A DNA stretch of 54,607 nucleotides from Indolivaga alginatilytica. GTDB taxonomy: Bacteria > Bacteroidota > Bacteroidia > Bacteroidales > Dysgonomonadaceae. The notes below the pieces were generated by a model, which did not search any database, was not told the DNA's origin, and saw only the letters and a program-made list of their open reading frames with translations. Where the stretch lies: assembly GCF_003201355.1 (NCBI RefSeq), contig NZ_QICL01000031.1:1-54607 (forward strand), in the 5' to 3' direction. This document shows, piece after piece, positions 31,318 through 53,947 of this stretch. Made by a program: the position numbers and the translations under genes. Position 1 is the stretch's first letter. Each line of letters opens with the position of its first letter.

Positions 31318-31335
31318 AAATCAAACAGATACTCT

Positions 31336-36277: not shown

Positions 36278-36311
36278 GATGTATTTACATAAAAACCAAA
36301 ATAGTTTCAGT

Positions 36312-37085: not shown

Positions 37086-37587
37086 GCAGGATAAAACAAA
37101 AGCGAAGAGCCGTCAGATAGAGATACCCAATCAGAATACCCTGCTTTCAACTATCAGTCAGGTTCATAAAGCAGGAGATCTTTCGCAGAGTATAGTATCT
37201 AAGGAACCGGAACAAATTGAACCCGAAAAGGCAGAAAATAATCTAACTACTGACCATCAACCAAAAAAAGAGTTAGAAGAATCTCCAATTGCCGAAAGTA
37301 AGCCTGTAAGCCTTCATCAAAAACGAAAGAGAGGCAATCAACCGGATGAGTCGTATTATAAGAGTACGTTTCTCACTAAAAGCGAATCGGGTTCCCGAAA
37401 GAATGTTTATATCAATCAGGAGCTGCACAAGACGGTTTCAAATATTGCGAGTGCGGCAAGAATAATAGATGGTAAGATTGTTACTGTCGGGGGATATATA
37501 GATAATGTTCTTGCCGAACATTTTGAAGCCAATAGGGAGGAGATTAATGCTTTATACCGTATCGGGAAGAATGACCTGGTTAAATAA
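37078..37587 (+). CDS. DUF3408 conjugal protein (TraB-like)
   Basis: 169 residues. A disordered, charged N-terminal two-thirds leads to a C-terminal ribbon-helix-helix-like domain with YYKSTFLTKSESGSRKNVYI and IVTVGGYIDNVLAEHFE, characteristic of DUF3408 proteins that follow parA in these elements. Confidence 0.82.
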   Translation: MSEQDKTKAKSRQIEIPNQNTLLSTISQVHKAGDLSQSIVSKEPEQIEPEKAENNLTTDHQPKKELEESPIAESKPVSLHQKRKRGNQPDESYYKSTFLTKSESGSRKNVYINQELHKTVSNIASAARIIDGKIVTVGGYIDNVLAEHFEANREEINALYRIGKNDLVK

Positions 37588-37620: not shown

Positions 37621-38286
37621 ATGGAAATAGATATAGATGCAGAGAAAATAAAAATGGCAGTATTGGCTGTAGCCTGTCTGTATATGGCAGGCTTGAATTT
37701 GTGGATACTTTTCAAAGATTGGTTTAATGAGTGGTATAGAAAGAAAAAAGATAGAAAAGTAGCACGGAGAAACAGCGTAGAGTTAGATGAGCGGGGTATT
37801 CCGAGCTTTGTGGGTAAATCAAAAACAGATACACGACTTTTGGCTTCTTTGAAAAACAAGCAACAGCAGATAGAAGAGAATAAACCAATACAAGCTATTC
37901 CTATGGAACCAACGCTTGGTAGAAAAGAGCCGGAACCGGTAACTAAATCAACGAATGATCTGCCGGTTAGTTCAGAGGAGGAATTCATCTTGTGTTCAGG
38001 TTATGACAAAAGCGATGCTGAATTGGCAGGCAATCAATCTTTCATGATTGATGAGTTTGAGTTGATGGCTAAATCTTTACAAGGTAAACCAATAACTAAG
38101 GGAGAAGAACAACAGGTGGCGGGAATAATAATCAGAGCTAAGGGTACTGATTTATATGAACAGATGGTCAGTCAGATCGATGGAGCTAAACAGCGGGCGT
38201 TAATTGTACTGAAAGAGTATGAGGCTGAAGAGTCTATAAGCGGTGGCTCTAAAAATGGGGGTTTTGATTTGAGTAGGTATGTTTAG
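37621..38286 (+). CDS. DUF4122 conjugal protein; its 3' end is duplicated at 44712
   Basis: 221 residues: N-terminal hydrophobic helix (MAVLAVACLYMAGLNLWILF), charged middle, C-terminal domain from about 130 (KSDAELAGNQSFMIDEFELM … GGFDLSRYV). Third gene of the tra operon. From codon ~131 onward the DNA recurs at 44712-44987 with about 87% identity. The next tra genes (DUF4134/TraE onward) are missing, so this operon cannot support conjugation by itself. Confidence 0.8.
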   Translation: MEIDIDAEKIKMAVLAVACLYMAGLNLWILFKDWFNEWYRKKKDRKVARRNSVELDERGIPSFVGKSKTDTRLLASLKNKQQQIEENKPIQAIPMEPTLGRKEPEPVTKSTNDLPVSSEEEFILCSGYDKSDAELAGNQSFMIDEFELMAKSLQGKPITKGEEQQVAGIIIRAKGTDLYEQMVSQIDGAKQRALIVLKEYEAEESISGGSKNGGFDLSRYV

Positions 38287-38331
38287 GAATAATGGTGAAA
38301 TATATCTCACGAATAGGAGTGCTAGTCGGAT
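38011..38331 (+). repeat. DUF4122 3'-end repeat, copy 1 (left boundary of module A)
   Basis: About 321 bp, starting at AGCGATGCTGAATT inside the DUF4122 gene and ending at AGTCGGAT, 45 bp past its stop. Direct repeat of 44712-45031. If module A inserted here by site-specific recombination, this copy was brought in by the module and restored the gene's reading frame. Confidence 0.75.
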
Positions 38332-38343
38332 CATTAATTCAAT

Positions 38344-38382
38344 AAATAGCTGTATATCAATTATTTATACAGCTATTTGTTT
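38344..38382. terminator. Bidirectional terminator between DUF4122 and the CBASS genes
   Basis: Stem AAATAGCTGTATA / TATACAGCTATTT, loop about 9 nt, T-rich after it. It serves the convergent DUF4122 gene (+) and TIR-STING gene (-). Confidence 0.7.
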
Positions 38383-38431
38383 TAAGATCATGAAACTATT
38401 GAAATCAATATCTGATTCAGCTAATCAAAAA

Positions 38432-39379
38432 TTACGGCTCAGTGATAAACTCTACAAATTCCTTACAAAAGGCATCATTAGCTACTAGCTTTCTCAAAAC
38501 CATTTCAAAATTTCTTAGTTCACGCTCCTCCAATAATTTTTGTTCGGTAGATTTACCAATATGACCAACCCTTAAGTACATATCAATTGCTTTATCTATC
38601 CCATTGAGTGTTGTTGGCATATCACTAAGGATTAAGCTGTCATAATGACTATCAATTGAAACATATAATGGATATTGTCGATGCTTTGTCTCTATTTGTA
38701 ATTGTTCAAATGAATTCTTTTTATGGTAGATTGTAGCTTTTTTCTTCAAATCAGAATCAAGGTCTTTGGGTAATACTATTTTAAGTTTAGCATTAGTGTA
38801 ATTTTTTCCATTTACAGACATCTCATATCCACTACCAATACTATCACACACTAGTTGTATGAAATTATAAAAATAGCCTATCGCTAAAACCGTGGATGGC
38901 AACATCCCCAAGAATCCAAGTTCTATTTTTTCTTGTATTTCTAATTTTAATTTTGATAAAGTTTTAATTAAAGAATCATCATCAATAATTAAAGAATCGT
39001 CTACATCTTTAGTACAATTAAAATCCGCAATAGTAATTCCCAATAAATCCGAAGGGAGCTTTACTGATTGATCTTTAATTACATATGCTTTATCACGCCC
39101 CAATCGACCTAAAAATAGACCATATTCAAATATGACATTATCTCTTGCCGTGGCAAAATCTTGTTTGCGAGAGATTGTATGATCATCTTGCGTAAAAACC
39201 ATGAAGCCAAAATCAAATAGGCTTGCTTCTTTCATTAATGTTTCAAGAAAATTTTCATTATATTTGAAAATATTGTCAGTCCAAAGGAAACATTCATACT
39301 CATCACTAAAGAAATCTTTAATTTTTTCAGCAACATTTAATCCTTCCTTAGAGGATCCTATAAAAATTCGTGGTTTCAT
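38432..39379 (-). CDS. TIR-STING CBASS effector
   Basis: 315 residues. The N-terminal TIR-type domain (1-125) has IFIGSSKEG and RDNVIFEYGLFLGRLGRDKA with the probable NADase glutamate E85. The C-terminal prokaryotic STING domain (about 157-305) has LPSTVLAIGYFYNF (161-174), LKIVLPKDL and the ligand-lid DMPTTL (253-258). Bacteroidetes TIR-STING proteins bind cyclic di-GMP made by their CD-NTase, form filaments and degrade NAD+, killing the infected cell. The gene overlaps the CD-NTase gene by 4 bp downstream of it, the usual operon order. GC content is visibly low. Confidence 0.88.
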   Translation of the reverse strand: MKPRIFIGSSKEGLNVAEKIKDFFSDEYECFLWTDNIFKYNENFLETLMKEASLFDFGFMVFTQDDHTISRKQDFATARDNVIFEYGLFLGRLGRDKAYVIKDQSVKLPSDLLGITIADFNCTKDVDDSLIIDDDSLIKTLSKLKLEIQEKIELGFLGMLPSTVLAIGYFYNFIQLVCDSIGSGYEMSVNGKNYTNAKLKIVLPKDLDSDLKKKATIYHKKNSFEQLQIETKHRQYPLYVSIDSHYDSLILSDMPTTLNGIDKAIDMYLRVGHIGKSTEQKLLEERELRNFEMVLRKLVANDAFCKEFVEFITEP

Positions 39380-40434
39380 GCTATTATTTTAAAATGTATT
39401 AAATCTTTTATTATTTGATCAAGTTCATAACTTAGTTTTTTAAATTCACCCAATTTACCAGGTTTTCCATTGAAAATATATTCACGTCCATCAACTGAAA
39501 CTATACTATTAGCGTAATATGGATCTGAACTTATTTTGGTGAAATTATTGTATAAAACTATTGCTAATTCCAAATATGTAGAGTTTTTATATTCATCTAT
39601 GGAGATATTGTAACAAATTGCATTTATATCAAAACTACTAAATTCTATTTCTTGATCAGAGTCTGCTTTTAATGTTTTTAGGAACCGTATCATCTTTTTT
39701 AAGCGCCCTTGTGTTTCTGTACTCCTTTCATTGATTCTATTGATGCTAATGAATGGATAATCTGAAGATTCTCTAGTATTGGTGGATTTATTGTAAATCT
39801 GCACACCTCTATTGTCACCCTTATCGTTTATTATTGATCGCACATCATCATACCAAGAGGCAGTGACAATATCTACATCTCGGTGTAAATCAAGATTTCT
39901 AATTTTGATAGATTTAGGTTTAGATATGTCGCATTTGGTATATTTCCGAATCAAAATATCTTCACTTTTCAATCTGATATCTCTCAAATCCTGGAGACAA
40001 TTACCTTGATATGGTGTTAAATTTAACTCCCTGTTTAGTTTCTCGATTTGTGTCCTATAGAAATTTTGTTTCTCAGTTTCCGAATCAAGAATTTTATCTA
40101 CATTATAACGATCCCAACTGTAAAATTTTTCAGAAATTGTCAATAAATCAATGTCACTATATCCTTTAATATGTGTTCTTGTCATAACAGAGCCTTGATA
40201 CCTATAAGTGACATTTGTTAGCTCTTTCTGTAAATGAGTTTTAACACGTTCCCCTGCTTCTATCGTTTTTTGTGTATAACTTTGGTCAACTTCATTCATT
40301 GCAATCTTTATATACTTAAGTATATCTTGTTTATCATCTGCAAATGCACTGAACATTTTCCTTTCTACTAACAAATCTTGATCAGGGTTCTGACGTGATA
40401 AGGTTTTAGACAATAGTGTACTGTAGTTTCTCAT
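39376..40434 (-). CDS. cdnE: CD-NTase (CdnE-like) cyclic-nucleotide synthase of CBASS
   Basis: 352 residues from the ATG at 40434; an upstream in-frame ATG at 40494 would add 20 hydrophobic residues not expected in this family. Nucleotidyltransferase signature YQGSVMTRTHIKGYSDIDLL gives GS at 81-82 and metal ligands D94/D96; the third acidic residue is in HRDVDIV (about 186-188). CD-NTases paired with TIR-STING make 3',3'-cyclic di-GMP; that product is inferred from the effector. First gene of the two-gene type I CBASS operon. Confidence 0.85.
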   Translation of the reverse strand: MRNYSTLLSKTLSRQNPDQDLLVERKMFSAFADDKQDILKYIKIAMNEVDQSYTQKTIEAGERVKTHLQKELTNVTYRYQGSVMTRTHIKGYSDIDLLTISEKFYSWDRYNVDKILDSETEKQNFYRTQIEKLNRELNLTPYQGNCLQDLRDIRLKSEDILIRKYTKCDISKPKSIKIRNLDLHRDVDIVTASWYDDVRSIINDKGDNRGVQIYNKSTNTRESSDYPFISINRINERSTETQGRLKKMIRFLKTLKADSDQEIEFSSFDINAICYNISIDEYKNSTYLELAIVLYNNFTKISSDPYYANSIVSVDGREYIFNGKPGKLGEFKKLSYELDQIIKDLIHFKIIA

Positions 40435-40741
40435 GTTGTATCTTTTTTTAATATTTAAAAAAATAAAAGCAAAATTAATGCCAATAGGAAACAAAATATT
40501 ACACCTGACAAATTGTTTTTATTTAAATGCAACAAGCTGACATAATGTCATTTATATAGAAAATAACTCTAAGCTTAAAAAGATAATCAAATTATTTTTA
40601 TTAAATTTTATTAAATTTAGCAATAATCACAGCAGTCATAATCATCAATGACTACTATCAGTTTCTCCTATAAATTATTAATCAGATTAAAGCTATGCTA
40701 ACAGGATAAGCGGCTATAATGCCGCTTATCATTTATAATAG

Positions 40742-41323
40742 ATGGGAACTAAATCATATGACATCTTATCATCTCTTGTTCCGGGCTTTATAATGCTATT
40801 GTCTTATTTGCCATTTTTCGGATATCAATATGATAAGGATTATGTAATTGGTTATACAGCAATTGCATTTGGCTTAGGTTATCTCTTAAATACCCTAGGT
40901 AGTTGGCTGGAAAATTTCTTCTTCTTTACATGGGGAGGAGTTCCATCTTCCAATCTCTTAGAAGGAAAAGGTATTAAGAGAGTAAAAGTTTACAACCATG
41001 AGTCAATAAAAAGTAGCTTGAAGAAATAAACTTCTAATCAAGCTGCTTGTAATAAAGAATAATTTAATATTGCAATGAGACATGTATTTACATCCAAGGA
41101 TCATAGAGCGGAGGATTTTAGTAATAGCTATGCTTTCTCCAGAACTATGCTAACTTGTGCTATTATTAGTTCTATTGTCATCATTATAACCTATTATGAT
41201 GACTGGAGAGCATACCTGGCTATTCCTGTTGTCATAATATTTTGGTATTGGGCTAAACAAAGAGGATATTACTTTGCTAAAGAGATTTTGCAAATTTATT
41301 CTAAAATAGAAAATGTCAAATAA
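40742..41323 (+). pseudogene. Defence-associated membrane protein with two in-frame TAA stops
   Basis: A single frame runs from ATG 40742 to 41323, interrupted only by TAA at 41027-41029 and at 41060-41062. Before: two or three membrane helices (SLVPGFIMLLSYLPFF, IGYTAIAFGLGYLLNTLGSW). After: MRHVFTSKDHRAEDFSNSYAFSRTMLTCAII and another helix pair. Both halves read like one ~190-residue membrane protein, of a kind I associate with small helper proteins in defence islands. It is either a pseudogene or two short ORFs. It is divergent from cdnE; the intergenic 40435-40741 is AT-rich without other genes. Confidence 0.6.
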
Positions 41324-41354
41324 TAATCTAGAATAAGACCTTGTTTTATTAGAT

Positions 41355-41383
41355 AAAAAGCGAACAAATCCTGTTCACTTTTA
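41355..41383. terminator. Terminator at the cargo/RhuM boundary, module A
   Basis: AAAAGCGAACA / TGTTCACTTTT with a 5-nt loop. It has the same place relative to the RhuM-like gene as the hairpin at 49425-49454 in module B, marking the end of the variable cargo. Confidence 0.65.
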
Positions 41384-41409
41384 ATGATATAATTATAATC
41401 AAACCTCTT

Positions 41410-41814
41410 CTAATTCAATGATATATTATCAAAATCATACCGAAACACAATAGCCGACTTGCTTTCCTTTTGTCTACAAATTCTATCCATTACCCATTTT
41501 CTAAAAATCTCCGCATTCCTAGACTTAATACGATAAGCCAAAGCAATAATTGCATCTAGGTTGTAGTAAACTGCTTGCCGTTCTGTATAATTACTAGAGT
41601 TGACTGCGTATCTGTAAGTATAAGAAACTTCATCTTCCCGCAAGACACCCGATTTGAAGATAGCCCGAAGGTTATTGTTAATCGTTTGAGTATGGACACC
41701 AAATAAGAATGCAATTTCATAATGTGTGAGCCACACTGTCCCGTTTATCGGTTTGAAAATAACTTCTGTGTTATTGTTCTCATCTGTACTGATATATAAT
41801 TTGCCTGTTTCCAT
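41410..41814 (-). CDS. RhuM-like DNA-binding protein, module A copy
   Basis: 134 residues. N-terminal wHTH-like region: VWLTHYEIAFLFGVHTQTINNNLRAIF (about 27-53), then YYNLDAIIALAYRIKSRNAEIFRKWV, the conserved core of RhuM/Fic-associated HTH proteins; full RhuM proteins are over twice this length. The copy at 49475-49879 is about 85% identical, and the last ~45 bp at the 3' end are the same. It follows intA by about 95 bp in the same direction, so it is part of the recombinase unit; an excision factor or regulator role is inferred. Confidence 0.7.
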   Translation of the reverse strand: METGKLYISTDENNNTEVIFKPINGTVWLTHYEIAFLFGVHTQTINNNLRAIFKSGVLREDEVSYTYRYAVNSSNYTERQAVYYNLDAIIALAYRIKSRNAEIFRKWVMDRICRQKESKSAIVFRYDFDNISLN

Positions 41815-41908
41815 GATGTTGATTTTTAGATTGGTTGATTACTACTGTTAATTTCTTTCTCAGGATACCTCCTGTTTCTCCTGCCGGGTTTGTATACCTT
41901 TTATCCGT

Positions 41909-43147
41909 TTACGCTAAGGTATATTTTCCTTCGATCCGTTCTGCCAGCTTTGTCATATCCTCATTAATTTTGGTACGGGTCGCTTCCGCATAAATCTGGG
42001 TAGTCTTGATCGACAGATGCCCCATCATTCGGCTAACGGTTTCTATCGGCACTCCCCCTGAAAGGCAAATTTCAGTTCCGAACGAGTGCCTACTCATGTG
42101 GTAGCAAAGCCGTTTATTGATTCCGCCAGCTTTTGCCAACTCCTTCAAATGTCCGTTAACACTGGTGGAAGACCGTATCTTGAAAATCTTGCCATCATTA
42201 CCGGAAAACTTCGTATCCTTATACTTGTCGATAATTTTCTTGGGGATATCCAATAAGGGAATATATGAAGTTGCTCCTGTTTTCTGCCTATTCAAGATAA
42301 TCCATAGGCTACCGTCTGCCTGTTGTTGAATATCCGTATATTGCAAATTCTTTAAATCAATATAAGAAATGCCCGTAAAGACCGAAAACAGGAACATATC
42401 CCGGACGAAGTTCTGAGCAGGGCTTTTTATTTCTAATTTCATCAGGCGGTCTATCTCGTCATGACAAAGCCACCGAGGATTAGATATTATCTTTTCAGGG
42501 GTATAGTCGAAGAAAGGGTCGTTTCGCAACAATCCCTTGTTAAATGCACGCATTGCCACAGTACGGAACGGTTTCATAGTTGACTTTGCTGTTCTCAAAG
42601 ACAGCCGTGCATCTATTTTTAGGTAATAATCATATTCTTCGATCATTGCCCCATTAACCATACCGAAAGGAATGTCGTGAGAATCGTATTTATGCTTCAA
42701 AAAGCCCTTGAAGTGTCTGTATGCAGCAGGATAAATAGCATAAGAACTGGCAACTATTCTGATTCCGATACTTTTCCGTTTTTCTTCAATCAGTTCAGGG
42801 AACTCCTGCATAACTGTATTTTGAACCGTTCCGATACCCCTAAGTGCATTTTTGAGCAATTCAGCGGTTACAAAACCTTGATTCTCTACCATATTCCGAT
42901 AATACTGTTCTAATTCAGATTTTAAGGTTTCTATCTGCTTGTTGATAGTGAAAACTTCATCGAGCTTGCCGACAGCCATTCCTTTGGCGGCATCCCATTG
43001 TTTTGGCTCAATATCCATTCCGATACTGAAAGCCTTGCTCTCTGCGTCCACACTGATACGCCCCATTATCGGACATTTGCCCGATTTCTTTTTCTTACTC
43101 GTATTGAGATAGAATAAGATGCTAAATGTGCTTCTATTGTATTTCAT
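41909..43147 (-). CDS. Tyrosine recombinase IntA, module A
   Basis: 412 residues: arm-binding domain (STFSILFYLNTSKKKKSGK), core-binding domain and catalytic domain with FTGISYIDLKNL (box I, Ser where Arg is usual, as in IntDOT), HMSRHSFGT (HxxRH), MGHLS and Tyr in TTQIYAE. It is roughly 60% identical to the module B protein at 49891. Compared with that copy the C-terminus ends early at TLA: the DNA beyond still matches but contains a stop and a one-base deletion. It lies 27 bp after intB. Confidence 0.88.
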   Translation of the reverse strand: MKYNRSTFSILFYLNTSKKKKSGKCPIMGRISVDAESKAFSIGMDIEPKQWDAAKGMAVGKLDEVFTINKQIETLKSELEQYYRNMVENQGFVTAELLKNALRGIGTVQNTVMQEFPELIEEKRKSIGIRIVASSYAIYPAAYRHFKGFLKHKYDSHDIPFGMVNGAMIEEYDYYLKIDARLSLRTAKSTMKPFRTVAMRAFNKGLLRNDPFFDYTPEKIISNPRWLCHDEIDRLMKLEIKSPAQNFVRDMFLFSVFTGISYIDLKNLQYTDIQQQADGSLWIILNRQKTGATSYIPLLDIPKKIIDKYKDTKFSGNDGKIFKIRSSTSVNGHLKELAKAGGINKRLCYHMSRHSFGTEICLSGGVPIETVSRMMGHLSIKTTQIYAEATRTKINEDMTKLAERIEGKYTLA

Positions 43148-43174
43148 AATTGTGTATAGTTGATTCTTGTTATT

Positions 43175-44425
43175 CTACCGGTTACTTGTCGGATAATCAA
43201 ATTTATCCGTAAGGCGTATAGATAATTGTTTCATATCGTTGCCGATTTTCTCGTTATTGACCCGGGCGTAGCGTTGAGTAGTCCGTATATCCCTGTGCCC
43301 GAGCATCTTGCTAACACTCTCTATGGGAACTCCCTGAGAGAGGCATATTTGCGAAGCAAAGCTATGACGGCTTTGATGGTAGGTCACGTTCTTGTCTATC
43401 TTACAATGTGTGGCTATTGTTTTCAAGGTATTGCCTATGGTTGTTTGCGTAGGTATGCAGAATAGGTAATCTCCCTCTGCACACCCTCTGTATTTTTCTA
43501 TTATCTGTATGGGAATATCCAGCAGTTTAACGTTAAATGGAACGCCTGTTTTCTGCCGTGATGAACAAATCCACAGGCTACCGTCTTTTTCCGTGATGAT
43601 TTCTTTGCATGTAAGTTTTTTAAGGTCGGCATATGAGATACCGGTGAACGAGGAAAACACGAACATATCACGAATGAAGCAGAGCTTTGAGCAAGGAAGA
43701 GGTGTTGAAATAAACCGTTCCAACTCTTCTTTTGTGAGCGAGCGTGTTTTTATCTCAGGTTTTTCCGGTTTAAATCCCCCAAAAGGTGGACGGTTGATTA
43801 AATTCCTGTTCAGGGCTATGCGTGCGACTTTTTGCAGATAGATAATATCTGTAATTGCCGAACCCGCCATTAATCCGCATTCCACCCGCAAATAGAAATC
43901 AAAGGCTTCAATGAAAGGCAAATCCAGTCGGCAAAGGGATATGTCTCGGATTTTATACTTCCCCCGAATAAAGGATTTGAGATGTTTATACGTTTTCTGA
44001 TAATTTTGATAGGTTGATGCGGAACGGTCTATACCAATCCTCGTTTGGAACTCCCGCATCATTTCCTCAAACAAAACAAGCAGGGTTTTCTGTGTGGATG
44101 CGATTCCTTGATAAGCGTTCTTAACGTCAATAGCCGTTACCGTTCCGGTGCGCTCTAAAATATCTTTGTAGTGAGAATGTATCAGGAGATTAATTTTGTT
44201 AATCTCCCTGTTGAGTTCAACGGCAACACGGCTTTTGCCGACTGCCCGTCCTGATTTGACATGCCAAAGGTGTTCAGTAACAGATAATTTGGAACTGAAC
44301 TGGGCGATACTATTCCCGATAATGATTTTCCCGATAATCGGATATGCTACATTCTCTCCGGCATTGTTTTTCTCAAGCCTACTTTCTCTTTTCAGGTAAA
44401 AAGATACCTTTAATTTGTTGTTCAT
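43175..44425 (-). CDS. Tyrosine recombinase IntB, module A
   Basis: 416 residues from MNNKLKVSFYLKRE; an ATG three codons earlier is possible, but this start matches the sibling at 51470-52720. Catalytic motifs: FTGISYADLKKL (Ser at box I), HQSRHSFAS, LGHRD and Tyr in TTQRYAR. First gene of the int pair and located about 290 bp from the module's right junction, as expected for the integrase nearest its att site. Distinct from IntA, so the pair is not a recent duplication. Confidence 0.88.
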   Translation of the reverse strand: MNNKLKVSFYLKRESRLEKNNAGENVAYPIIGKIIIGNSIAQFSSKLSVTEHLWHVKSGRAVGKSRVAVELNREINKINLLIHSHYKDILERTGTVTAIDVKNAYQGIASTQKTLLVLFEEMMREFQTRIGIDRSASTYQNYQKTYKHLKSFIRGKYKIRDISLCRLDLPFIEAFDFYLRVECGLMAGSAITDIIYLQKVARIALNRNLINRPPFGGFKPEKPEIKTRSLTKEELERFISTPLPCSKLCFIRDMFVFSSFTGISYADLKKLTCKEIITEKDGSLWICSSRQKTGVPFNVKLLDIPIQIIEKYRGCAEGDYLFCIPTQTTIGNTLKTIATHCKIDKNVTYHQSRHSFASQICLSQGVPIESVSKMLGHRDIRTTQRYARVNNEKIGNDMKQLSIRLTDKFDYPTSNR

Positions 44426-44464
44426 AAAACTCACATTTTTAAGTTGATAAAATTACTCCTTATA

Positions 44465-44711
44465 TGAGTTATTTGAATAATGTAAACAGCAGACAAACAG
44501 TGCTATACTCTACCAATAAAGGTCACCCGATTGCCCTGTTTTGCTCCGTCAAAAATGGGTAACGGTATAGAGACGGAATGTTTGCTTTTTTATGCCAAAT
44601 TTGGCATTTTAGCTACTCGGCACTCAAAGACAGAAACGGACACTCATTCTGATTATTAGTTTGTTACCCTATTTTTCCTTCCTTTGCTTTTTCTATTGTC
44701 AGTTTGAAAAG
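44465..44711. promoter_or_regulatory. Right-end arm region of module A
   Basis: Contains TGAGTTATTTGAAT (44465-44478), GGGTAACGGTATAGAGACGG (44557-44576), an ATGCCAAATTTGGCAT palindrome (44592-44607) and an inverted GTTACCC near 44670. Most of it aligns with 52759-52999, the right end of module B, and the 14-mer and GGGTAACG motif are also at the left end (17225-17292). It ends at the DUF4122 repeat. Confidence 0.65.
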
Positions 44712-45031
44712 AGCGATGCTGAATTAGCAGGTAATCAATCTTTCATGTTTGATGAGTTTGAGTTGATGACTAAATCTCTGCAAGGTAAATCAATAACTAA
44801 GGGAGAAGAACATCAAGTGGCGGAAATAATAATCAGAGCTCAGGGTACTGATTTGTATGAACAGATGGTTAATCAGATTGATGGGGCTAAACAACGGGCT
44901 TTAATTGTACTGAAAGGGTATGAGACTGAAGAGTCTATAAACAGTGGATCTATAAATGGGGGTTTTGATTTGAGTAAGTATGTTTAGGTATAATGGTGAA
45001 AATATTTTACGAATAGGAGTGTTAGTCGGAT
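44712..45031 (+). repeat. DUF4122 3'-end repeat, copy 2, carrying a truncated gene
   Basis: Encodes KSDAELAGNQSFMFDEFELM … GGFDLSKYV (stop at 44985-44987), the last ~92 residues of DUF4122, without a start of its own. About 87% identical in DNA to 38011-38331, including 45 bp after the stop up to AGTCGGAT. The upstream open frame is only the end of the module A arm region. It is the displaced or second copy of the attachment gene end. Confidence 0.8.
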
Positions 45032-45158
45032 GCTATCTGTTGGCATCCGATGTTTGCTAGAGGCGAGGAATAGTGAGAAGATTGCTTATGTTAAAATTGC
45101 AGGAGGAATATTGTATAAGGAAAGTGATGTGATGGTGTTGCTAGAGGGAAACTTCTAA
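45030..45158 (+). pseudogene. Possible HTH (excisionase-like) fragment, 42 aa
   Basis: ATG 45030 opens 42 residues; the end KIAYVKIAGGILYKESDVMVLLEGNF resembles the second half of the Xis/MerR-type HTH domain, as in PFFKVEGRVYYRATDIRVFV of the protein at 32565. The recognition helix is absent, so it is likely a remnant joined to the DUF4122 repeat. Nothing else is seen up to 45246. Confidence 0.35.
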
Positions 45159-45246
45159 AAATTAGGACATTCTATCATGTAAAATATATTTGTATATCTG
45201 TTTTTTATATAACTTTACATTCTATCTAATATTATTATTGTAATCA

Positions 45247-47796
45247 ATGGGAAAAACTGTAGAATTAGAAATCATTGAGTGGGTAAAATCACTATCATAT
45301 TGGGAAAAATATATTGCATCATACATACTGAACAATATTGATATAACAAATGAAATCTTGCAAAAATCTTACATCTTTTTTAAAGAAGATGCAGGACTTA
45401 TAGAGAATCATAATTTGGAACGACAAGATATAATATTTAAAGGTGGTATTGTTAATAATGAAGAATCTAATTCTCTTCTCAAAGAGGTACATAGTATAAA
45501 GAATGTAAATGCTTTAAAAGAGGACCAAGTAATACCTATAGGGGAAAAACTAACATTAATCTATGGTGAAAATGGTGTTGGTAAATCAGGATACATAAGA
45601 TTGCTAAACAATGTTTTCAAATCAAGAGGAGATAAGAGTATCGTACCTAATATTTATTCTCCAAATCAATCTAAACCACCTTGTTGCACTTTTAAATTCA
45701 TGAAAGATTCCAACATCTATGAGATTTCATACCCCGAGAGCGAAAATTCACCAGAATTTAATCTGTATTCCGTTTTTGATTCATCTACAGCTCATGCTCA
45801 TTTAACACAAGAAGATGAGCTTACCTTTATTCCAAATTCGTTTTTGTTTTTTGATAAATTTATTAATAATCTACAGCATATTTTATATTTACTCTCATCT
45901 GAGATATCAAGTAAACAGAAACCGAATCCATTTAGAATATATTTTGAGAAAGAAACTTCCACAAAAACTATTATTGATGAGCTTTCTGCCAACTCTAAGA
46001 TTTTAGAAATAAAGAAATTATCAGAAATTTCAGAAGAAGAAAAATCGAAGAATGAAATAGATGTTAAAGAACTAAAGACATTAAACTCTACAGATATTCA
46101 GAAGAAGGCAAATGAGATAAGTAAGATAAAATCACTCCTCGTTGATTTAAATTTAAAAATAGAACAATCAAATTTACTATTCACAAAAGAACAGATTGAA
46201 TCTTTACAGTTAAGAATCAGTAACCATGGACAAAATATAGAGCTTTCTAAAATAGAAGGCATTGACCAGTTTAAGACTGATAAATTCAAATCAATTGGGA
46301 GTAATGAATGGAAAAACTTTATAAAATCAGCGGAAATATACGCTAAATTGCAAAATCTAGATATAAGTAATATTCCAATTCAAATTGATTATTGCTTATT
46401 TTGTCAACAACGATTAGACGAAAGTGCAAAAAAAACGATAGAATCATATTGGTCTTTTTTGTCAAGTAAAGTCGAAAACGAATTGAAAATCAGCAGCAAA
46501 GACATAAAAGATTTAGTAAACTTATATGAACAAATAGATTTCGATTTAATAAAGAAGGGAACAATATTAGAGGAATGGCTAAAAGAGAACTATGAAGATT
46601 TGCTATCAAATATAGAATCTAATCTATCTTTACAGAAAAACTATTGTGTCAAAATTTTAGCTTCACTTAAAAATATAGAATGGAATACGGAAATAACTAC
46701 TTTTCAAATAGATAAGAAATTTATTGGAGATTTAAATAAAATACTTTCTGATGAATTATTGAAATTAGATATTGAGAAAATAAGTGAAAGGAAAAAACAA
46801 CTTGACAAATCAAACAATGAATATTTAGATAGATGTAGACTAGCTCCATTAATTGATCAAATTGAGGAATGGATAAATGTTTGTAAATGGATTAAGAAAG
46901 CAGAAAATAAGCAGTTTACGACAAGAAAAGTAACATCTAAACAGAAGGATCTTTTCACTAAATATGTTACAGAGGATTATGTTAAAACATTTAATGAGGA
47001 ATGCACCCTTTTAAATGCAAATTTTAAAGTTGAAATTCAACAACGAGGAAGTAAAGGAACAACACTAAAAAAACTTTCTCTGAAAGGGGAAACTCCAGCA
47101 AAAATATTAAGTGAAGGAGAACAAAGAGCAATCGCTTTTGCTGATTTTCTCTCAGAAGTTCAAATGGGAGGCAATGTTAAAGGTCTCTTTTTTGACGATC
47201 CGGTTAATTCTTTAGATCATAAGAGAAAGTATATAATTGCACAACGTATTGTTGAAGAATCTAAAAATAAACAAGTAATTATATTTACTCATGACATCTC
47301 TTTTTTTATGTCTTTACAGTCTATTGCTATTGAGAATAATGTAGAGTGTACTTATACAACAATAAGAAAAATACTTAATATCCCAGGCATTATTATTTCC
47401 GAACTTCCATGGCCGGCAATGAATGTTAAAGAACGTATATCTAAATTGAAGCAGAAGTTACAAAACCTTAGTCCTGTTGAAAATTCGGATAATGTCGATG
47501 AATATTACTTTCAAGCAAAATCTTGGTGTGGCTTATTGAGAGAAAGTTGGGAAAGAAGTGTCGAAGAAAAGCTGTTTAATGATGCCATCCAACGTTTCAA
47601 TCCTGCTATCCAAACTCAAAGATTAAAAAAAGCACCATTCACCGTTGCATTATATAGTGATATAGAAAAAGGTATGGGAGAATGTTCTAATTGGGTTCAC
47701 GATCAAGCAAGAGCTTTAAATCAAGATGCACCAAATACAAAAGAATTAAAGACCTATTTAGATCTCTTCGAAACTTTTGTTAAACAATTCAATTAG
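45247..47796 (+). CDS. SMC/RloC-like ABC ATPase, predicted defence protein
   Basis: 849 residues. Walker A GENGVGKS (about 107-114), long coiled-coil region (250-560) interrupted by a CLFC pair (C383, C386) that resembles a zinc hook, ABC signature LSEGEQRA (621-628), Walker B GLFFDDPVNSLD (646-657) and H-loop FTHDISFF. The C-terminal ~120 residues (SWERSVEEKLFNDAIQRFNP, CSNWVHDQARALN) are shared by AAA ATPases of defence islands. RloC and PrrC have this plan plus a tRNA nuclease; I see no clear nuclease motif here. It stops 22 bp before the kwaA start. Confidence 0.75.
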   Translation: MGKTVELEIIEWVKSLSYWEKYIASYILNNIDITNEILQKSYIFFKEDAGLIENHNLERQDIIFKGGIVNNEESNSLLKEVHSIKNVNALKEDQVIPIGEKLTLIYGENGVGKSGYIRLLNNVFKSRGDKSIVPNIYSPNQSKPPCCTFKFMKDSNIYEISYPESENSPEFNLYSVFDSSTAHAHLTQEDELTFIPNSFLFFDKFINNLQHILYLLSSEISSKQKPNPFRIYFEKETSTKTIIDELSANSKILEIKKLSEISEEEKSKNEIDVKELKTLNSTDIQKKANEISKIKSLLVDLNLKIEQSNLLFTKEQIESLQLRISNHGQNIELSKIEGIDQFKTDKFKSIGSNEWKNFIKSAEIYAKLQNLDISNIPIQIDYCLFCQQRLDESAKKTIESYWSFLSSKVENELKISSKDIKDLVNLYEQIDFDLIKKGTILEEWLKENYEDLLSNIESNLSLQKNYCVKILASLKNIEWNTEITTFQIDKKFIGDLNKILSDELLKLDIEKISERKKQLDKSNNEYLDRCRLAPLIDQIEEWINVCKWIKKAENKQFTTRKVTSKQKDLFTKYVTEDYVKTFNEECTLLNANFKVEIQQRGSKGTTLKKLSLKGETPAKILSEGEQRAIAFADFLSEVQMGGNVKGLFFDDPVNSLDHKRKYIIAQRIVEESKNKQVIIFTHDISFFMSLQSIAIENNVECTYTTIRKILNIPGIIISELPWPAMNVKERISKLKQKLQNLSPVENSDNVDEYYFQAKSWCGLLRESWERSVEEKLFNDAIQRFNPAIQTQRLKKAPFTVALYSDIEKGMGECSNWVHDQARALNQDAPNTKELKTYLDLFETFVKQFN

Positions 47797-47818
47797 CCAT
47801 ATTATTTCGAGTGACATT

Positions 47819-48397
47819 ATGATAAGAAAAATAGGATTATATTTTTTGTCTCTATGGTTATTGTTTTTATTAATTATTATAATCACAGTTGATATTCCTA
47901 TTTACTGGGGAGAAGATAGTCAGTTTATAGGAATAAATTATCTGTTCTCTCGCAATATAGTTCCTTTTATATGCATTATAGCACTTATTATTGGCGCTTT
48001 TTCGTTTTACGACTTCAATCATAAATTAAAAGGGACTCCTGAATTGGCATTTAAAATTACAGAAATAGAAAATATTGATTATGAACATCTGACGTTTCTT
48101 ACAACATACATTATTCCTTTAGTTTGTTTTAATTTTGACAGTGTTAGATATGAATTAGTGCTACTTATTGTATTGATAATAATAGGGATAATATATATTC
48201 GTACAAATTTATATTATGCAAATCCAACTTTAGCTATTTTAGGATTTAGGATATATAAAGTTACTGGAGATTTTGTTAGAATAGGAACAAGAAATAATAT
48301 TGTTTTGATAACAAGAGATAAACTAGATAAATCTGACAGAGTAAAGTATATAAAATTAGACCCGAACATTTTTTATGCAAAAAAAATAAAATCATGA
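47819..48397 (+). CDS. kwaA: KwaA-like four-helix membrane protein (Kiwa)
   Basis: 192 residues from ATG 47819; an earlier in-frame ATG at 47777 overlaps the ATPase and adds a polar stretch. Four hydrophobic segments (IGLYFLSLWLLFLLIIIITV, IVPFICIIALIIGAF, FLTTYIIPLVCF, LVLLIVLIIIGIIYI). The text YEHLTFLTTYIIPLVCF fits the conserved core I recall for KwaA. Kiwa senses phage at the membrane through KwaA. The stop overlaps the next gene by 4 bp. The call rests on size, topology and the KwaB-like partner. Confidence 0.72.
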   Translation: MIRKIGLYFLSLWLLFLLIIIITVDIPIYWGEDSQFIGINYLFSRNIVPFICIIALIIGAFSFYDFNHKLKGTPELAFKITEIENIDYEHLTFLTTYIIPLVCFNFDSVRYELVLLIVLIIIGIIYIRTNLYYANPTLAILGFRIYKVTGDFVRIGTRNNIVLITRDKLDKSDRVKYIKLDPNIFYAKKIKS

Positions 48398-49356
48398 ATA
48401 GAGAAGACTTAATACAGCATTTAGGTTTTGTGTCTCAGCCTGAAATTGAAATACAAATTATAATATATGCTATTTTAAAAGAAGAGGAGTTTCCTCGAAA
48501 GTTAGATATTAAAGAAACAGATCTACCTAGTTTAGCTGATATGTTTTTAAAGAGTATAAAGAAAAAGATTATAGAAAATGATACATTTTCAATACTTGCT
48601 TTATCAACTGCTGATGAACGAACGAACTGTTATTATGAATATGATCTAGATTTACCTGTAGAACTACAAAATCTAGAGAGCGTTATTGGAAATGATGATA
48701 TCTCTATTTTTAGTTTCAACAATCATAACATTCAAGATATTGACTCCTTAATAATTGTAATCTCACAAGGAGACCAACAGATATCTCTATTTAAAAAATT
48801 ATCGACTGTTGAAATAATAGGACCAAGTGGTTATTTAGTGTGGAAATCTAATCAAAGGCTTGAAAAATTTGAAGATAGTTTGCTTCGAATCAGTCCAAAT
48901 TTTCAAGCCATACTTGTTAATAATACAGTAGTAATATTAGATTTGAAATTTATAGAGAGAAGTTTTGGCTTTATTGATGTTATCAAAAGAGAAGCTTTAC
49001 TTGGACTTAATGCTATAAGAGACATTAATATTATTTCAAACTTAAATACTTTAGAAGAATTAGTTGATGATATTACTTTCGCAAGAAAGCTTACAAAAAT
49101 AGCACGGAATTCTCCTGTGATCCAGAAAAGTATACCAAATACTGTTATTATAACTTTTACCGAGACACATCCAGCACTTAAAGGTAAAATCAGGTATAAT
49201 GATACGAAAACTCAAATAAACTTACATACAAAAACAGCGAAAAACCTATTTGTAAAGTTATTAAATGATGATTTTCTTACATCAGAATTAACAAGTTCAT
49301 ATTATGATTCTTTAGCAAAAGATAATATTGATCTTATTGAAGAGGAAATAAATTAG
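48394..49356 (+). CDS. kwaB: KwaB-like DUF4868 protein (Kiwa)
   Basis: 320 residues, the size of KwaB (~315). The middle has the DUF4868 pattern: DSLIIVISQGDQQISLFKKL, RLEKFEDSLLRISPNFQAIL, NNTVVILDLKFIERSFGFIDVI. KwaB is the cytoplasmic partner of KwaA and acts on phage DNA replication or late transcription in the known system. Translationally coupled to kwaA (ATGA overlap). No signal peptide or membrane helix. Confidence 0.78.
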   Translation: MNREDLIQHLGFVSQPEIEIQIIIYAILKEEEFPRKLDIKETDLPSLADMFLKSIKKKIIENDTFSILALSTADERTNCYYEYDLDLPVELQNLESVIGNDDISIFSFNNHNIQDIDSLIIVISQGDQQISLFKKLSTVEIIGPSGYLVWKSNQRLEKFEDSLLRISPNFQAILVNNTVVILDLKFIERSFGFIDVIKREALLGLNAIRDINIISNLNTLEELVDDITFARKLTKIARNSPVIQKSIPNTVIITFTETHPALKGKIRYNDTKTQINLHTKTAKNLFVKLLNDDFLTSELTSSYYDSLAKDNIDLIEEEIN

Positions 49357-49424
49357 TACGATATTATTAAGTAAGAGGGTTTAAATATTGAGGTCTATGA
49401 GTATAGTGCTACAAGCTATGAGTC

Positions 49425-49454
49425 AAAAGGCGAGCAAATTCTGCTCGCTTTTTT
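49425..49454. terminator. Terminator at the cargo/RhuM boundary, module B
   Basis: AAAAGGCGAGCA / TGCTCGCTTTTTT with a short loop; convergent terminator for kwaB (+) and the RhuM-like gene (-). Same position as 41355-41383 in module A. Confidence 0.8.
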
Positions 49455-49474
49455 AGTGAAAACCAAAACCTCTT

Positions 49475-49879
49475 CTAATTCAATGATATATTATCAAAAT
49501 CATACCGAAACACCACAACTGACTGGCTTTCCTGCTGCCTGCAAATCCTTTCTATCAGCCATTCTCTAAAAACCTCCGCATTCCTAGACTTAATACGATA
49601 AGCCAAAGCAATAATTGCATCTAGGTTGTAGTAAACAGTTTGCCGTTCTCTATATGTACCAGAGTTGGCTGTGTATCTGTGAGTATAAGAAACTTCATCC
49701 TCCCGCAAGACACCCGATTTTAAAACTGCCCGAAGGTTATTGTTAATCGTTTGAGTATAGACACCAAATAAGGATGCTATTTCATAATGTGTGAGCCACA
49801 CTGTCTCATTTATCGGTTTGAAAATAACTTCTGTGTTATTATTCTCATCTGTACTGATATATAATTTGCCTGTTTCCAT
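49475..49879 (-). CDS. RhuM-like DNA-binding protein, module B copy
   Basis: 134 residues, about 85% identical to 41410-41814, same length, with VWLTHYEIASLFGVYTQTINNNLRAVL and NLDAIIALAYRIKSRNAEVF. Here it starts 11 bp after the intA' stop, so it is clearly in the recombinase operon. The strong conservation beside diverged integrases suggests it matters for the module. Confidence 0.72.
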   Translation of the reverse strand: METGKLYISTDENNNTEVIFKPINETVWLTHYEIASLFGVYTQTINNNLRAVLKSGVLREDEVSYTHRYTANSGTYRERQTVYYNLDAIIALAYRIKSRNAEVFREWLIERICRQQESQSVVVFRYDFDNISLN

Positions 49880-49890
49880 AATTTTGATTT

Positions 49891-51270
49891 TTAGATTGGT
49901 TGATTATTACTGTTAATTTCTTTCTCAGGATACCTCCTGTTTCTTCTGCCGGGTTTATATATCTTTTTATCAGTTTCGGCTAAGGTGTATTTTCCTCCGA
50001 TATGTTCTGCCAGATTGGTCATATCCTCATTAATCTTTGTTCTTGTGACCTCCGCATAGATTTGGGTCGTTTTTATTGAGAGATGCCCCATCATCTGACT
50101 AAGGCTTTCAATGGGTACTCCCTGTGTCAGGCAAACGGTTGTTGCAAATGTAAATCGGCTCATATGGAAAGTAAGCCGTTTGTCAATCTTAGCTGCTTTA
50201 GCCAGTCGTTTGAGTTGCCAGTTCATATTCACATGAGTTTGCAGTTGGAAAACTTTTCCATCCGTTCCTGCAAATTCGGTGTTTTGGTATTTGTTTAGGA
50301 TTTGAATGGGTATATCCAGTAATGGTATGTAAGAAGCTGTTCCTGTTTTCTGCCTGTTCAGGGTTACCCATAAACTGCCGTCTTCCTGTTGTTGGATATT
50401 ACTGTGCTTCAGATTTCTTAAATCGATACCGGTAATACCTGTGAATGCACAAAAGATAAACATATCCAGGGTAAAGTTCCATGTATCATGTTTGGTCTGT
50501 ATCTGCATCAAACGTTGTATTTCATCATTGGTAAGCCACGGACGTTTGGGGATGATCCTTTCAGGGATAAAATCAAAGAAAGGGTCTTGGCGGATCAAGC
50601 CTTTGTTGAAGGCTCGCTTTATGGTGGTTCGAAGCGGAATCATATTTGCTTTTACTGTTCTGGGTGTCATCTTCAGATCGATTCTCAGGTAATAGGCATA
50701 GGCTTCGATAAATGCAATATTGACCTGACCGAAAGGAATATCTTCTATACTATACTTTTCAACTAGAAATTTTTTCAGATGTTTATAAGCATTCGGATAG
50801 ACAACATAGGTCGATTCGGTTATCTTGACACCGACACTCTTTCGTTTTTCTTCCACCAGTTCCCCATATTCCTGCATCAGACTGGTATTCTTTGTTCCGA
50901 TACCTTTGAGTGCATTTTTCAGGGCTTCGGCTGTTACATAGCCGTTTTCTTCTACCATGTGTTTGTAATGATCCGCTAATGTTGTTTTCAGTTCGTCTAT
51001 CTGACGGTTGATATAAGCAGGTTCGTTGGTGGTATCAGTTTTCTTCATTGGTTTCAGGATAGCTAATCCGTCTTTGGTATCCCAACATTCGGGTAGAATA
51101 TCCAAGCCTGTGCTGAAAGCTGTATTTTTACCGTCTATACTGATACGCCCCACTATTGGACACTTACCTGACTTCTTTGTTTTACTTGTATTCAGATAGA
51201 ATAATATGCTGAATGTGCTTCTGTTATTTTTATCTTGGTGTGTATGCTGTATATGTTGCATCTGTTGCAT
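49891..51270 (-). CDS. Tyrosine recombinase IntA', module B
   Basis: 459 residues: same architecture as the module A IntA, with an extra N-terminal stretch (MQQMQHIQHTHQDKN) and an intact basic C-terminal tail (PGRRNRRYPEKE) lost in module A. Motifs: FTGITGIDLRNL, HMSRFTFAT (the residue after the HxxR arginine is Phe, where the sibling has His), MGHLS and Tyr in TTQIYAE. The substitution next to HxxR may affect activity. Confidence 0.87.
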   Translation of the reverse strand: MQQMQHIQHTHQDKNNRSTFSILFYLNTSKTKKSGKCPIVGRISIDGKNTAFSTGLDILPECWDTKDGLAILKPMKKTDTTNEPAYINRQIDELKTTLADHYKHMVEENGYVTAEALKNALKGIGTKNTSLMQEYGELVEEKRKSVGVKITESTYVVYPNAYKHLKKFLVEKYSIEDIPFGQVNIAFIEAYAYYLRIDLKMTPRTVKANMIPLRTTIKRAFNKGLIRQDPFFDFIPERIIPKRPWLTNDEIQRLMQIQTKHDTWNFTLDMFIFCAFTGITGIDLRNLKHSNIQQQEDGSLWVTLNRQKTGTASYIPLLDIPIQILNKYQNTEFAGTDGKVFQLQTHVNMNWQLKRLAKAAKIDKRLTFHMSRFTFATTVCLTQGVPIESLSQMMGHLSIKTTQIYAEVTRTKINEDMTNLAEHIGGKYTLAETDKKIYKPGRRNRRYPEKEINSNNQPI

Positions 51271-51469
51271 GGCTATATATGTTGAATTTATAGATTTATG
51301 AATTGCTTAATTAATTTATTGATCAATTAAGTAACAGTAAATATTTATTTTTACATTTTATAACTATCTCTCGCTATTATACTTACCAAAGTAATAAATA
51401 GGTTTGAGATCTTAATCTATTGATTGTTATTCAAAAGAATCTAATTTATGATTTATTCAGATTTGTAAT

Positions 51470-52720
51470 TTATTCCGGAAAGTTGAATTTGCCTACAAGA
51501 CGGTTTGATAGTTGCTTCATATCGCTTCCTATCTTCTCATTATTGACACGGGCGTACCGTTGGGTGGTCTGAATATTGCGATGCCCCATCATTCGGCTGA
51601 CACTTTCTATGGGTACTCCCTGAGAGAGGCAAAGTTGGCTTGCAAATGTATGACGGGCAACATGGTAGCTTATTTTAGTTGCTATACCACAGTGTTTTGC
51701 GACTGCTTTTAGAGCATCGGTGATGCGTCTATGAGATAATACAACAAAGACAGGGTCATCTTTACCTGTTCCGCTTATACCTTTGTATTTCTCTATAATC
51801 CGAATCGGTATATCCAGTAACTTTACATTGAATGTAATATCTGTCTTTTGCCTGCTCTTGAATATCCACAGGCTACCATCTTCTTCCTGAATAATATCTT
51901 TCCAGACAAATCCTTTGAGATCGGCATACGATAAGCCTGTGAATGCTGCAAATACAAATAAGTCCCGAATGAAAGACTGACTGGATGATTCTATAGGAGT
52001 AGACATTAATCGTTCAAATTCTTCGGCTGAAAGCGATCTGATTTGGAATTCGGGTTTTTCGATTTTGTATCCATAGAAAGGAGGGTGTGTGATCAGGTTA
52101 CGATGTAAAGCAATACGCACAGCTTTCTGTAACAAGGCGACTATCGAAACAATGGATTCAGATTTCAGTTTACGCTCTACCCGCAGGTTAAAGTCATAGG
52201 CTTCGATAAAGGGCAGGTCTAATTGAGAAAGAGGGATATCTTCAACATTATACTTTTCTTTCAGAAAACGTTTTAGGTTTTTATAGGCTGTTATGTATTT
52301 GAAGTAAGTTGAAGGGGCACGATCGATACCAATTCGTGAGTGAAATTCCTGCATCATCTCTTCAAACAGCACAAGCAGAGTTTTCTGTGCGGTGGCTATT
52401 CCTTGAAACGCATTTTTGACCTGTAGGGCTGTTACTTCTCCTGTACGGTCTAAGATATCTTTGTAATGGGAATGAATGGAGAGGTTGATTTTGTTTATCT
52501 CCCGATTTAACTCAACAGCAATTTTACTTTTGCCGATTGCTCGTCCTGATTTTACATTCCAGAGATTTTCAGAAACAGATAATTTTGAACCAAATTGGGC
52601 GATACTGTTACCGATAATAATCTTCCCGACGATGGGATAGATTCTGGAGGAATCTACATGGGTCTTACTTAAACTTTGTTCTCTTTTGAGGTAGAAAGAT
52701 ACCTTTAATTCTTGTTTCAT
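51470..52720 (-). CDS. Tyrosine recombinase IntB', module B, next to attR
   Basis: 416 residues, close relative of IntB (43175). FTGLSYADLKG (Ser at box I), HVARHTFAS, MGHRN and Tyr in TTQRYAR. It is separated from intA' by 200 bp without a gene. It lies 280 bp from attR at 53000, so it is the prime candidate for the enzyme that joined the element to the FISUMP gene. Confidence 0.88.
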   Translation of the reverse strand: MKQELKVSFYLKREQSLSKTHVDSSRIYPIVGKIIIGNSIAQFGSKLSVSENLWNVKSGRAIGKSKIAVELNREINKINLSIHSHYKDILDRTGEVTALQVKNAFQGIATAQKTLLVLFEEMMQEFHSRIGIDRAPSTYFKYITAYKNLKRFLKEKYNVEDIPLSQLDLPFIEAYDFNLRVERKLKSESIVSIVALLQKAVRIALHRNLITHPPFYGYKIEKPEFQIRSLSAEEFERLMSTPIESSSQSFIRDLFVFAAFTGLSYADLKGFVWKDIIQEEDGSLWIFKSRQKTDITFNVKLLDIPIRIIEKYKGISGTGKDDPVFVVLSHRRITDALKAVAKHCGIATKISYHVARHTFASQLCLSQGVPIESVSRMMGHRNIQTTQRYARVNNEKIGSDMKQLSNRLVGKFNFPE

Positions 52721-52758
52721 TTTGGCTCACATTTTAAGTTTTTAAATTACTTTTTCTG

Positions 52759-52999
52759 TGAGTTATTTGAATGGAGCAACAGGCAGACAATTAATGCTTT
52801 AATCAGTCAAATGGCGACGCCGGTTTGCTGTGTTTTGCTTCGTCTAAAATGGGTAACGTTTTAGAAACGGAACGTCTGCTGTATTCTGCTTAAATGCTTG
52901 TTTTTGACCTTAGACAGTAGATGACAGAGAAAGACGCTTCTCTCTGATTGCCATTTGGTTACCGCTTATTTCTATTCCTTGCTCTTGAGGGTCTAGGTT
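52759..52999. promoter_or_regulatory. Right-end arm region of the element (module B)
   Basis: TGAGTTATTTGAAT (52759-52772) and GGGTAACGTTTTAGAAACGG (52851-52870) match the right end of module A and, for the 14-mer in inverse orientation, the left end at 17279-17292. An inverted GGTTACC lies near 52956. Distance from the 14-mer to the junction is about 230 bp in both right ends. Confidence 0.65.
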
Positions 53000-53008
53000 G
53001 GGATGGCA
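53000..53008 (+). other. attR core GGGATGGCA
   Basis: Identical to 17155-17163 and in the same reading frame (GGA TGG CA) of the interrupted FISUMP gene. The element between the cores is about 35.8 kb. Confidence 0.75.
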
Positions 53009-53225
53009 GTTGGATAGAGGAGACTTCTCTCAATTATTCTATGTTTCTAAGTTTGCTGCTAAACAAGCAAACGGAGAAGGAGCTAGTATAGATCTGCATG
53101 ACTTTATTACATTCTATCCTAAAAATCCAGGAGAAAATGTGGCAGGTGATATTCCTTACAGCTACGGAACTTGGTATGGCGTGAGATATTGTAAAAGACT
53201 AACTCCCCAAGAATTAGGATATTAA
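53000..53225 (+). pseudogene. C-terminal part of the split FISUMP-domain gene
   Basis: Open from the core to a TAA at 53223-53225: GWQLDRGDFSQLFYVSKFAA … PYSYGTWYGVRYCKRLTPQE. SYGTWYGVRYCKR corresponds to the FISUMP end 'SYGxSVRCV', which the 16334-17167 part lacks. There is no ATG; a stop lies four codons before the core. It completes the protein begun at 16334. Confidence 0.78.
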
Positions 53226-53266
53226 GTATACTATATTCCGGGAAAACATGACAAAAACTTGCCCGA

Positions 53267-53857: not shown

Positions 53858-53947
53858 AATTTTTTAAAACTTTAAATTGTTTGTTTTCTATACATATCAG
53901 ATTTTCGTGTATAGAAAAATAGAAATATCTATACACGAAAAAAAATT

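Follow-up and report, generated by a model that had tools for sequence, protein, structure and literature searches.

The two neighbouring defence-gene units in contig NZ_QICL01000031.1 of Indolivaga alginatilytica (the window analysed here is the entire contig of 54,607 bp) both lie inside a single 35.8-kb element, from 17155 to 52999, which interrupts a host gene. Our best explanation, which we consider probable as a whole, is that this element is one integrated mobilizable island of a family with two tyrosine recombinases, IntA and IntB. The RhuM–IntB–IntA module found in each unit is then read as the integration machinery located at one end in a family of Bacteroidales islands, and not as a stand-alone cassette vehicle. 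Unit 2 (44705–52999) would be the resident island's own right end together with its cargo slot (an ATPase gene and a Kiwa system), and unit 1 (38004–44704), which carries a cyclic oligonucleotide-based antiphage signalling system (CBASS), is best read as the remnant of a second, related island. Dual-recombinase islands are already known; here two of them seem to be nested, and their cargo looks swappable. The question shifts from a new cassette system to the ways in which the mobilizable islands of the Bacteroidales exchange and accumulate anti-phage genes.

The open reading frame (ORF) at 16334–17167 terminates just past the nine bases GGGATGGCA at 17155, the identical nine bases recur at 53000, and joining the flanks at this 9-bp core produces one open frame. 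Homologues of the split gene in two congeners (G001 and G003) have longer frames, are 45% identical, and align over residues 63/64–348, spanning the junction. At the left end, the motif GGGTAACGATATAGAAA at 17225 has the same 17 bases within three database loci (L177, L179 and L183) whose two ends are about 8.4–10.5 kb apart (in shuffled sequence, the looser form of the motif used in our search should turn up 0.13 times per 10 kb and strand), and the right ends of both units and of 19 related loci align up to a common point of divergence. It is because of the joined host frame, the conserved left-end motif and the aligned right ends that we read 17155–52999 as a single island. Two features by which integrative and mobilizable elements (IMEs) are recognised were also found: direct repeats flank the insertion in the disrupted target (the 9-bp core here, and an 11-bp repeat, AGTACATTYAA, with one mismatch around the L179 island), and the island has its own relaxase (33798–35066), which scored above the NCBIfam Bacteroid_MobB cut-off. 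The part of the window ORFs scanned against Pfam contained no coupling or mating-pore protein. The conserved ends and split target gene suggest that IntA and IntB may act jointly at both ends of the island, with RhuM as an optional partner that probably binds DNA and regulates recombination, and the relaxase would let a helper conjugative element mobilize the island.

A sequence-only reading of this DNA, whose interpretation proved only partly right, had described the units as siblings built on one skeleton, and in this it was right. Each carries the 3' gene repeat and a RhuM-like (Bro-N) gene, together with a pair of tyrosine recombinases and a common right end, and the alignments between them extend over the repeat, the RhuM–IntB–IntA stretch and the right end. 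In BLAST searches between the units, the 3' repeats (38004–38331 and 44705–45031) were 90% identical over 328 bp, 41347–43144 was 73% identical to 49417–51231, and 43221–44595 was 68% identical to 51507–52889 (E 3e-119 or lower). All four recombinases (IntB1, IntA1, IntB2 and IntA2) have the HxxR, GH and Y motifs; within the window IntA and IntB are 37–39% identical, and the two genes are separated by 27 bp in one unit and 199 bp in the other, with no gene in the gap. The cargo does differ as had been claimed, with Pfam and PADLOC identifying CBASS (CdnE and TIR-STING) in one unit and a PDC-S06 ATPase plus Kiwa in the other; the CD-NTase adjoins its effector in unit 1, and KwaA and KwaB occur together in unit 2. 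Unit 1 additionally contains a broken small membrane-protein gene (40742–41323). The right ends of the units align mutually as well as with the 19 related loci, and the true right end is at 52999/53000, which corrects the earlier reading. We did not retain the label DUF4122 for the gene which contributes the 3' repeat, as the protein (37621–38286) had no Pfam or NCBIfam match; its place after ParA–DUF3408 is the sole hint, which suggests a traC identity, and we refer to it as the traC-position gene. A terminator had also been assigned to both units, and a terminator-like hairpin was scored after RhuM2 (49448–49430) but none passed the scan after RhuM1. A promoter scan gave results at chance level, and an 11–13-mer search for short repeats of the unit ends recovered only the known copy at 38011 plus scattered 11–12-mers, which we took for chance matches.

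A database scan with IntA returned 72 loci, including 49 with a strong IntA, and IntB was directly downstream in 44 of these 49. A short RhuM was next to IntB in only 16 of the 44 IntA–IntB loci, so that the duo, and not the trio, is the constant core. We refer to groups of islands as alpha to delta (names coined in this analysis, by identity and shared ends), and it should be noted that several genomes contributed two loci (e.g. L189 and L191, L179 and L194, and L175 and L205). The earlier view of the trio as an autonomous cassette vehicle was not supported by this comparison: every locus in which the two ends could be located had the duo at one end of a larger island of about 8.4 to 36 kb, and both window units lie inside one such island. 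This largely matches the outcome that the sequence-only reading had itself named as its refutation, a trio that always belongs to a larger element. Six islands (G001, G017, G029, G144, G240 and G369) were bounded at about 17–29 kb, and in five of the six the window relaxase had a BLAST match (27–34% identity). The beta islands L083, L114 and L115, and also L203 and L208, share the order ParA, DUF3408, traC-position gene, small genes, slot, RhuM, IntB and IntA.

The segments flanking the cargo and the recombinases have diverged very differently between the two units. Four-fold sites were identical at 37/39 positions in RhuM and 21/26 in the traC-position 3' anchor, compared with 33/80 in IntB and 42/94 in IntA (a silent-site identity of 81–95% for the cargo-flanking segments versus 41–45% for the recombinases), and nucleotide identity per 100 bp was 84–96% through RhuM and then mostly 52–79% in IntB and IntA, with gapped stretches lower. 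On this evidence the two cargo-flanking segments share a recent ancestry and the recombinases do not, pointing to exchange of the block from anchor through cargo to RhuM by homologous recombination as the explanation of the contrast, and suggesting a mechanism of cargo turnover. Cargo would be swapped mainly by homologous recombination between the traC-position 3' end and the RhuM gene, and not by site-specific recombination of the cassette type. The slot beside RhuM is also variable amongst the beta islands, where it contains a KilA-N gene in L083, L114, L115 and L208, a LinB-like nucleotidyltransferase in L118 (12923–13729), and no called gene in L116 and L119.

The right end of unit 1 is genuine and is joined to the interior of a traC-position gene; no left-end motif was found in 37900–38800, where the best match had 6/17 mismatches. 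With a genuine right end and no recognisable left end, unit 1 is best read as a related island in the mobilization operon which has lost its left half. We suggest that this second island inserted into the traC-position gene, and that homologous recombination joining the two mobilization operons most likely deleted its left half; such a loss would have left the traC-position gene readable and stacked CBASS on the island as a second defence cargo. The gene at 37621–38286 is open across the start of unit 1. In 4 of the 49 modules examined (L188–L191, of which two share a genome), homologues of the window relaxase or its accessory protein lie next to the module. We note that the islands in L184 and L187–L191 end against a short inverted repeat which is followed by similar sequence, in L188–L191 beside relaxase genes; by eye, this repeat is possibly an origin of transfer (oriT).

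If each unit were instead autonomous, IntA–IntB would cut and paste it at a site in the traC-position gene and the unit would carry a replacement 3' end. Both units do begin at the same position in the gene, the end of unit 1 coincides exactly with a genuine right end, the traC-position gene is open across the junction, and the native junction sequence resembles the right-end core by eye; but there is no left-end motif at 38004, the relatives with both ends placed are whole islands, and among 11 short loci with traC-position relatives (33–55% identical; about 1.5 kb on either side) only C28, from the same genome, has an adjacent RhuM and recombinase, and there the recombinase is single with no cargo between. 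The beta islands do have a more distant traC-position gene (21–23%) upstream of the slot and trio, but there it is part of a longer operon. We consider autonomous cassettes unlikely. We also doubt that IntL, the third recombinase of the island, is the integrase of the whole with both trios as passengers. It sits about 250 bp inside the left end, a usual place for an integrase, and immediately inside its own left end G001 has a 308-aa ORF that resembles a recombinase by eye, but the right and left ends of the island are the conserved ends of the duo, and in G017, G369 and G029 recombinase models matched none of the ORFs in that position. The shared gene order and orientation of the units might come from a simple tandem duplication, after which the two copies of the module diverged and had their cargo replaced. 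This is very improbable, however, as the junction at 44705 is a genuine island end and the silent sites of RhuM and the 3' anchor have changed little, in contrast to the strong divergence of those in IntA and IntB; uniform silent divergence was not seen, and the uneven pattern rules out a duplication of the simple kind.

Several points also weigh against our own explanation of one island with a nested remnant. Neither excision nor a circle was observed, and IntL, which adjoins the left end, might be the integrase which placed the island. Gene conversion acting on the two anchor copies could account for their similarity. Our history of unit 1 relies on a single locus, and we found no ancestor and no second tandem of this type. 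Furthermore, the window relaxase had no BLAST match to the putative relaxases of the small alpha relatives (about 300 aa, assigned by size only), which indicates that the island is itself a mosaic.

The sequence-only reading expected cargo beside the trio to be enriched for defence genes, and such an enrichment was present. At 1e-10, 136 proteins inside the islands matched 224 PADLOC families and 136 proteins outside, drawn at random from 188, matched 75 (these are counts of families and not of proteins, as several models match one protein). The inside set drew on 29 loci, took in proteins of 120 aa or longer located no more than 10 kb from IntB, and extends beyond the left end in small islands such as L177, L179 and L183; any protein with a match to the Int, RhuM, ParA, DUF3408, traC-position or relaxase references was taken out before counting, L201, L204, L211, L216, L226 and L236 were excluded from both sets as copies of genomes already read, and nine ORFs crossing the edge of a fetched stretch were dropped. 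In the six bounded islands, 74 proteins matched 171 PADLOC families, with four matching the type I methyltransferase model and four the specificity-subunit model, and GmrSD-like, IetA-like, DarT-domain and DarG proteins were identified individually. However, the enrichment is not exclusive, since in a sample of eight alpha loci and one gamma locus only 4 of the 10 slot proteins matched PADLOC, from three of the nine loci (L179, L183 and L188), and this counts against a defence-only view. So does the sole one of the 28 ORFs of G240 viewed singly, which matched CARF–RtcR-type regulators over the regulator part.

Integrase sequence was found in the first 1.07 kb outside the right end in 8/42 database loci, compared with 7/237 windows further out (Fisher p = 4e-4), while 34/42 loci had no integrase in that kilobase. 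These counts exclude the window and G240, G144 and C46, which were added after integrase pieces had been seen beside them (with the hand-added loci the counts become 11/47 and 12/260), and the L176 match among them is weak at 30 bits. The G240 and G144 islands each interrupt an integrase gene at the codons for its FTG motif, the integrase fragments in L194 and L195 begin at a similar model position (254–261), and L179, L181 and L186 sit at the start of an integrase gene; the target of the islands differs between subgroups. The excess of integrases at landing sites suggests conflict between mobile elements. We would only tentatively extend this to islands that are both hyperparasites and defence shuttles, preferring the integrase or mobilization genes of rivals, swapping cargo between two anchors, and stacking anti-phage systems on one transferable island through nested landings; if true, landing in such genes would disable rival mobile elements.

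For comparison with known systems we drew on PMC10214605, PMC5704250 and PMC4755523. The islands are not undescribed in kind, as the sequence-only reading had supposed, since tandem tyrosine recombinases are present in MTnPi1–3 of Prevotella intermedia, which with MTnPi6, 7 and 9 are described as 'Tyr duo' mobilizable transposons (MTns) or IMEs, and for MTnPi1–3 excision was demonstrated by PCR (PMC4755523, PMC5704250). The likeness covers Bacteroidales islands with a relaxase and two tandem tyrosine recombinases at one end, and the MTnPi elements are multi-copy; in contrast, their att sites are of an 11-bp TTAC/TTGC N5 AA type, which differs from the window core GGGATGGCA and from the AGTACATTYAA repeat of L179, and RhuM is not mentioned in the MTnPi main text. 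As the target is different and the likeness is one of description, we have not filed the islands as MTnPi members. The same sources report conjugative transposons (CTns) with internal integrase genes, thought to derive from inserted MTn-like elements, and one CTn inside an integrase gene; MTn accessory genes for an ABC transporter component, a LuxR regulator, a protease, a beta-lactamase family protein and an arginase; and a type I restriction system named for a CTn (PMC4755523, PMC5704250). Firmicutes IMEs similarly use other mobile elements as landing sites, namely genes (traG) or the oriT of integrative and conjugative elements, whereas here the hosts are Bacteroidales and the recurrent sites are integrase genes and the mobilization operon, beside a recombinase pair (PMC5704250). 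SE and GInt elements also have more than one tyrosine recombinase, but with a recombinase-fold protein and a fourth conserved gene (the SE order is intA–tfp–intB–srap), whereas IntA and IntB are adjacent in the window and a relaxase is present. Integron-type cassettes are small and mobilized in trans by one integrase, unlike the window units with their own recombinase pair and several genes. Gamma-Mobile-Trio islands of the Gammaproteobacteria are trio-associated and defence-rich with different recombinase and partner genes, a likeness of description. A limited literature search found no description of the RhuM–IntB–IntA module itself.

The I. alginatilytica genome has seven RhuM matches, six of which are short and near a recombinase, and the seventh lies in a 327-aa frame, also near a recombinase match. 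In the fetched loci, 47/53 short RhuM proteins follow a same-strand recombinase within 1.5 kb, which is not an unbiased rate because many loci were fetched via RhuM or IntA and copies were kept. A C-terminal Leu-Asn or Met-Asn occurs in 36/53 short Bro-N/RhuM proteins with varying codons, which suggests a constraint at the protein level; a comparison of RhuM with solved structures gave nothing below E 0.05. The PADLOC candidate families PDC-S05 (RhuM, including RhuM1 of the window) and PDC-S22 (KilA-N, in L083, L114, L115 and L208) match genes beside recombinases, and may be counted as defence merely by adjoining integration modules. In L068, L073, L074, L076, L077 and L080, one recombinase (two in L073) and a short RhuM adjoin a gene of about 169–177 aa, which from size and order we take to resemble the start of a polysaccharide locus.

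Table 1. Features of the window, with the evidence for each.
Feature	Position	Strand	Evidence
Left half of split host ORF	16334..17163	+	Frame continuous over joined flanks; congener homologues align across junction
Left core GGGATGGCA	17155..17163	.	Same nine bases at right end
Left-end motif GGGTAACGATATAGAAA	17225..17241	+	Identical 17 bases in L177, L179, L183
IntL, third tyrosine recombinase adjoining left end	17412..18806	+	Family match
Relaxase	33798..35066	-	NCBIfam Bacteroid_MobB (above cut-off), Pfam Relaxase
Relaxase accessory protein	35051..35518	-	Pfam MobC_2; NCBIfam Bacteroid_MobA below cut-off
ParA-like ATPase	36279..37085	+	Family match
DUF3408 protein	37078..37587	+	Family match
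traC-position gene	37621..38286	+	Position after ParA–DUF3408; no Pfam or NCBIfam match
Left cargo anchor copy 1: 3' end of traC-position gene and next bases	38004..38331	+	Alignment
CBASS effector, TIR + prok_STING	38432..39379	-	Pfam CAP12-PCTIR_TIR and prok_STING; PADLOC TIR effector 2.2e-123
CBASS nucleotide cyclase, CdnE-like	39376..40494	-	PADLOC cyclase 3.1e-146
Small membrane-protein gene, in-frame stops	40742..41323	+	First part: weak PDC-M48A match
RhuM1, short Bro-N/RhuM; right cargo anchor copy 1	41410..41814	-	Pfam, just below curated cut-offs
IntB1 tyrosine recombinase	41909..43147	-	Motifs; C-terminal tail shorter than that of IntB2
IntA1 tyrosine recombinase	43175..44434	-	Family match, motifs
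Unit 1 right-end arm motif	44557..44573	+	Alignment with relatives
Unit 1 module right end	44690..44704	.	Joined to interior of traC-position gene
Left cargo anchor copy 2: displaced 3' end of traC-position gene	44705..45031	+	Alignment
AAA_13 ATPase, candidate defence	45247..47796	+	PADLOC PDC-S06
KwaA	47777..48397	+	PADLOC 3.9e-77
KwaB	48394..49356	+	PADLOC 6.8e-114
RhuM2, right cargo anchor copy 2	49475..49879	-	Short Bro-N/RhuM, Pfam, above cut-offs
IntB2 tyrosine recombinase	49891..51270	-	Family match, motifs
IntA2 tyrosine recombinase	51470..52720	-	Family match, motifs
Unit 2 right-end arm motif	52851..52867	+	Alignment with relatives
Right core GGGATGGCA	53000..53008	.	Same nine bases as left core
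Right half of split host ORF	53009..53232	+	Frame continuous over joined flanks

Within the island, 17412–32372 contains IntL, an AraC-type regulator, a DUF3868 protein, a Fib_succ_major-domain protein and a C11 peptidase, which by order and family form a fimbria-like block. To the right of the island, conjugation genes were ruled out for 53267–54607, as this sequence has several homologous copies in its own and related genomes near lysis-like genes; it contains a repeated gene set, also seen in L144, L145, L146 and L147, which by eye resembles holin, lysozyme and an accessory lysis gene, and the contig ends there.

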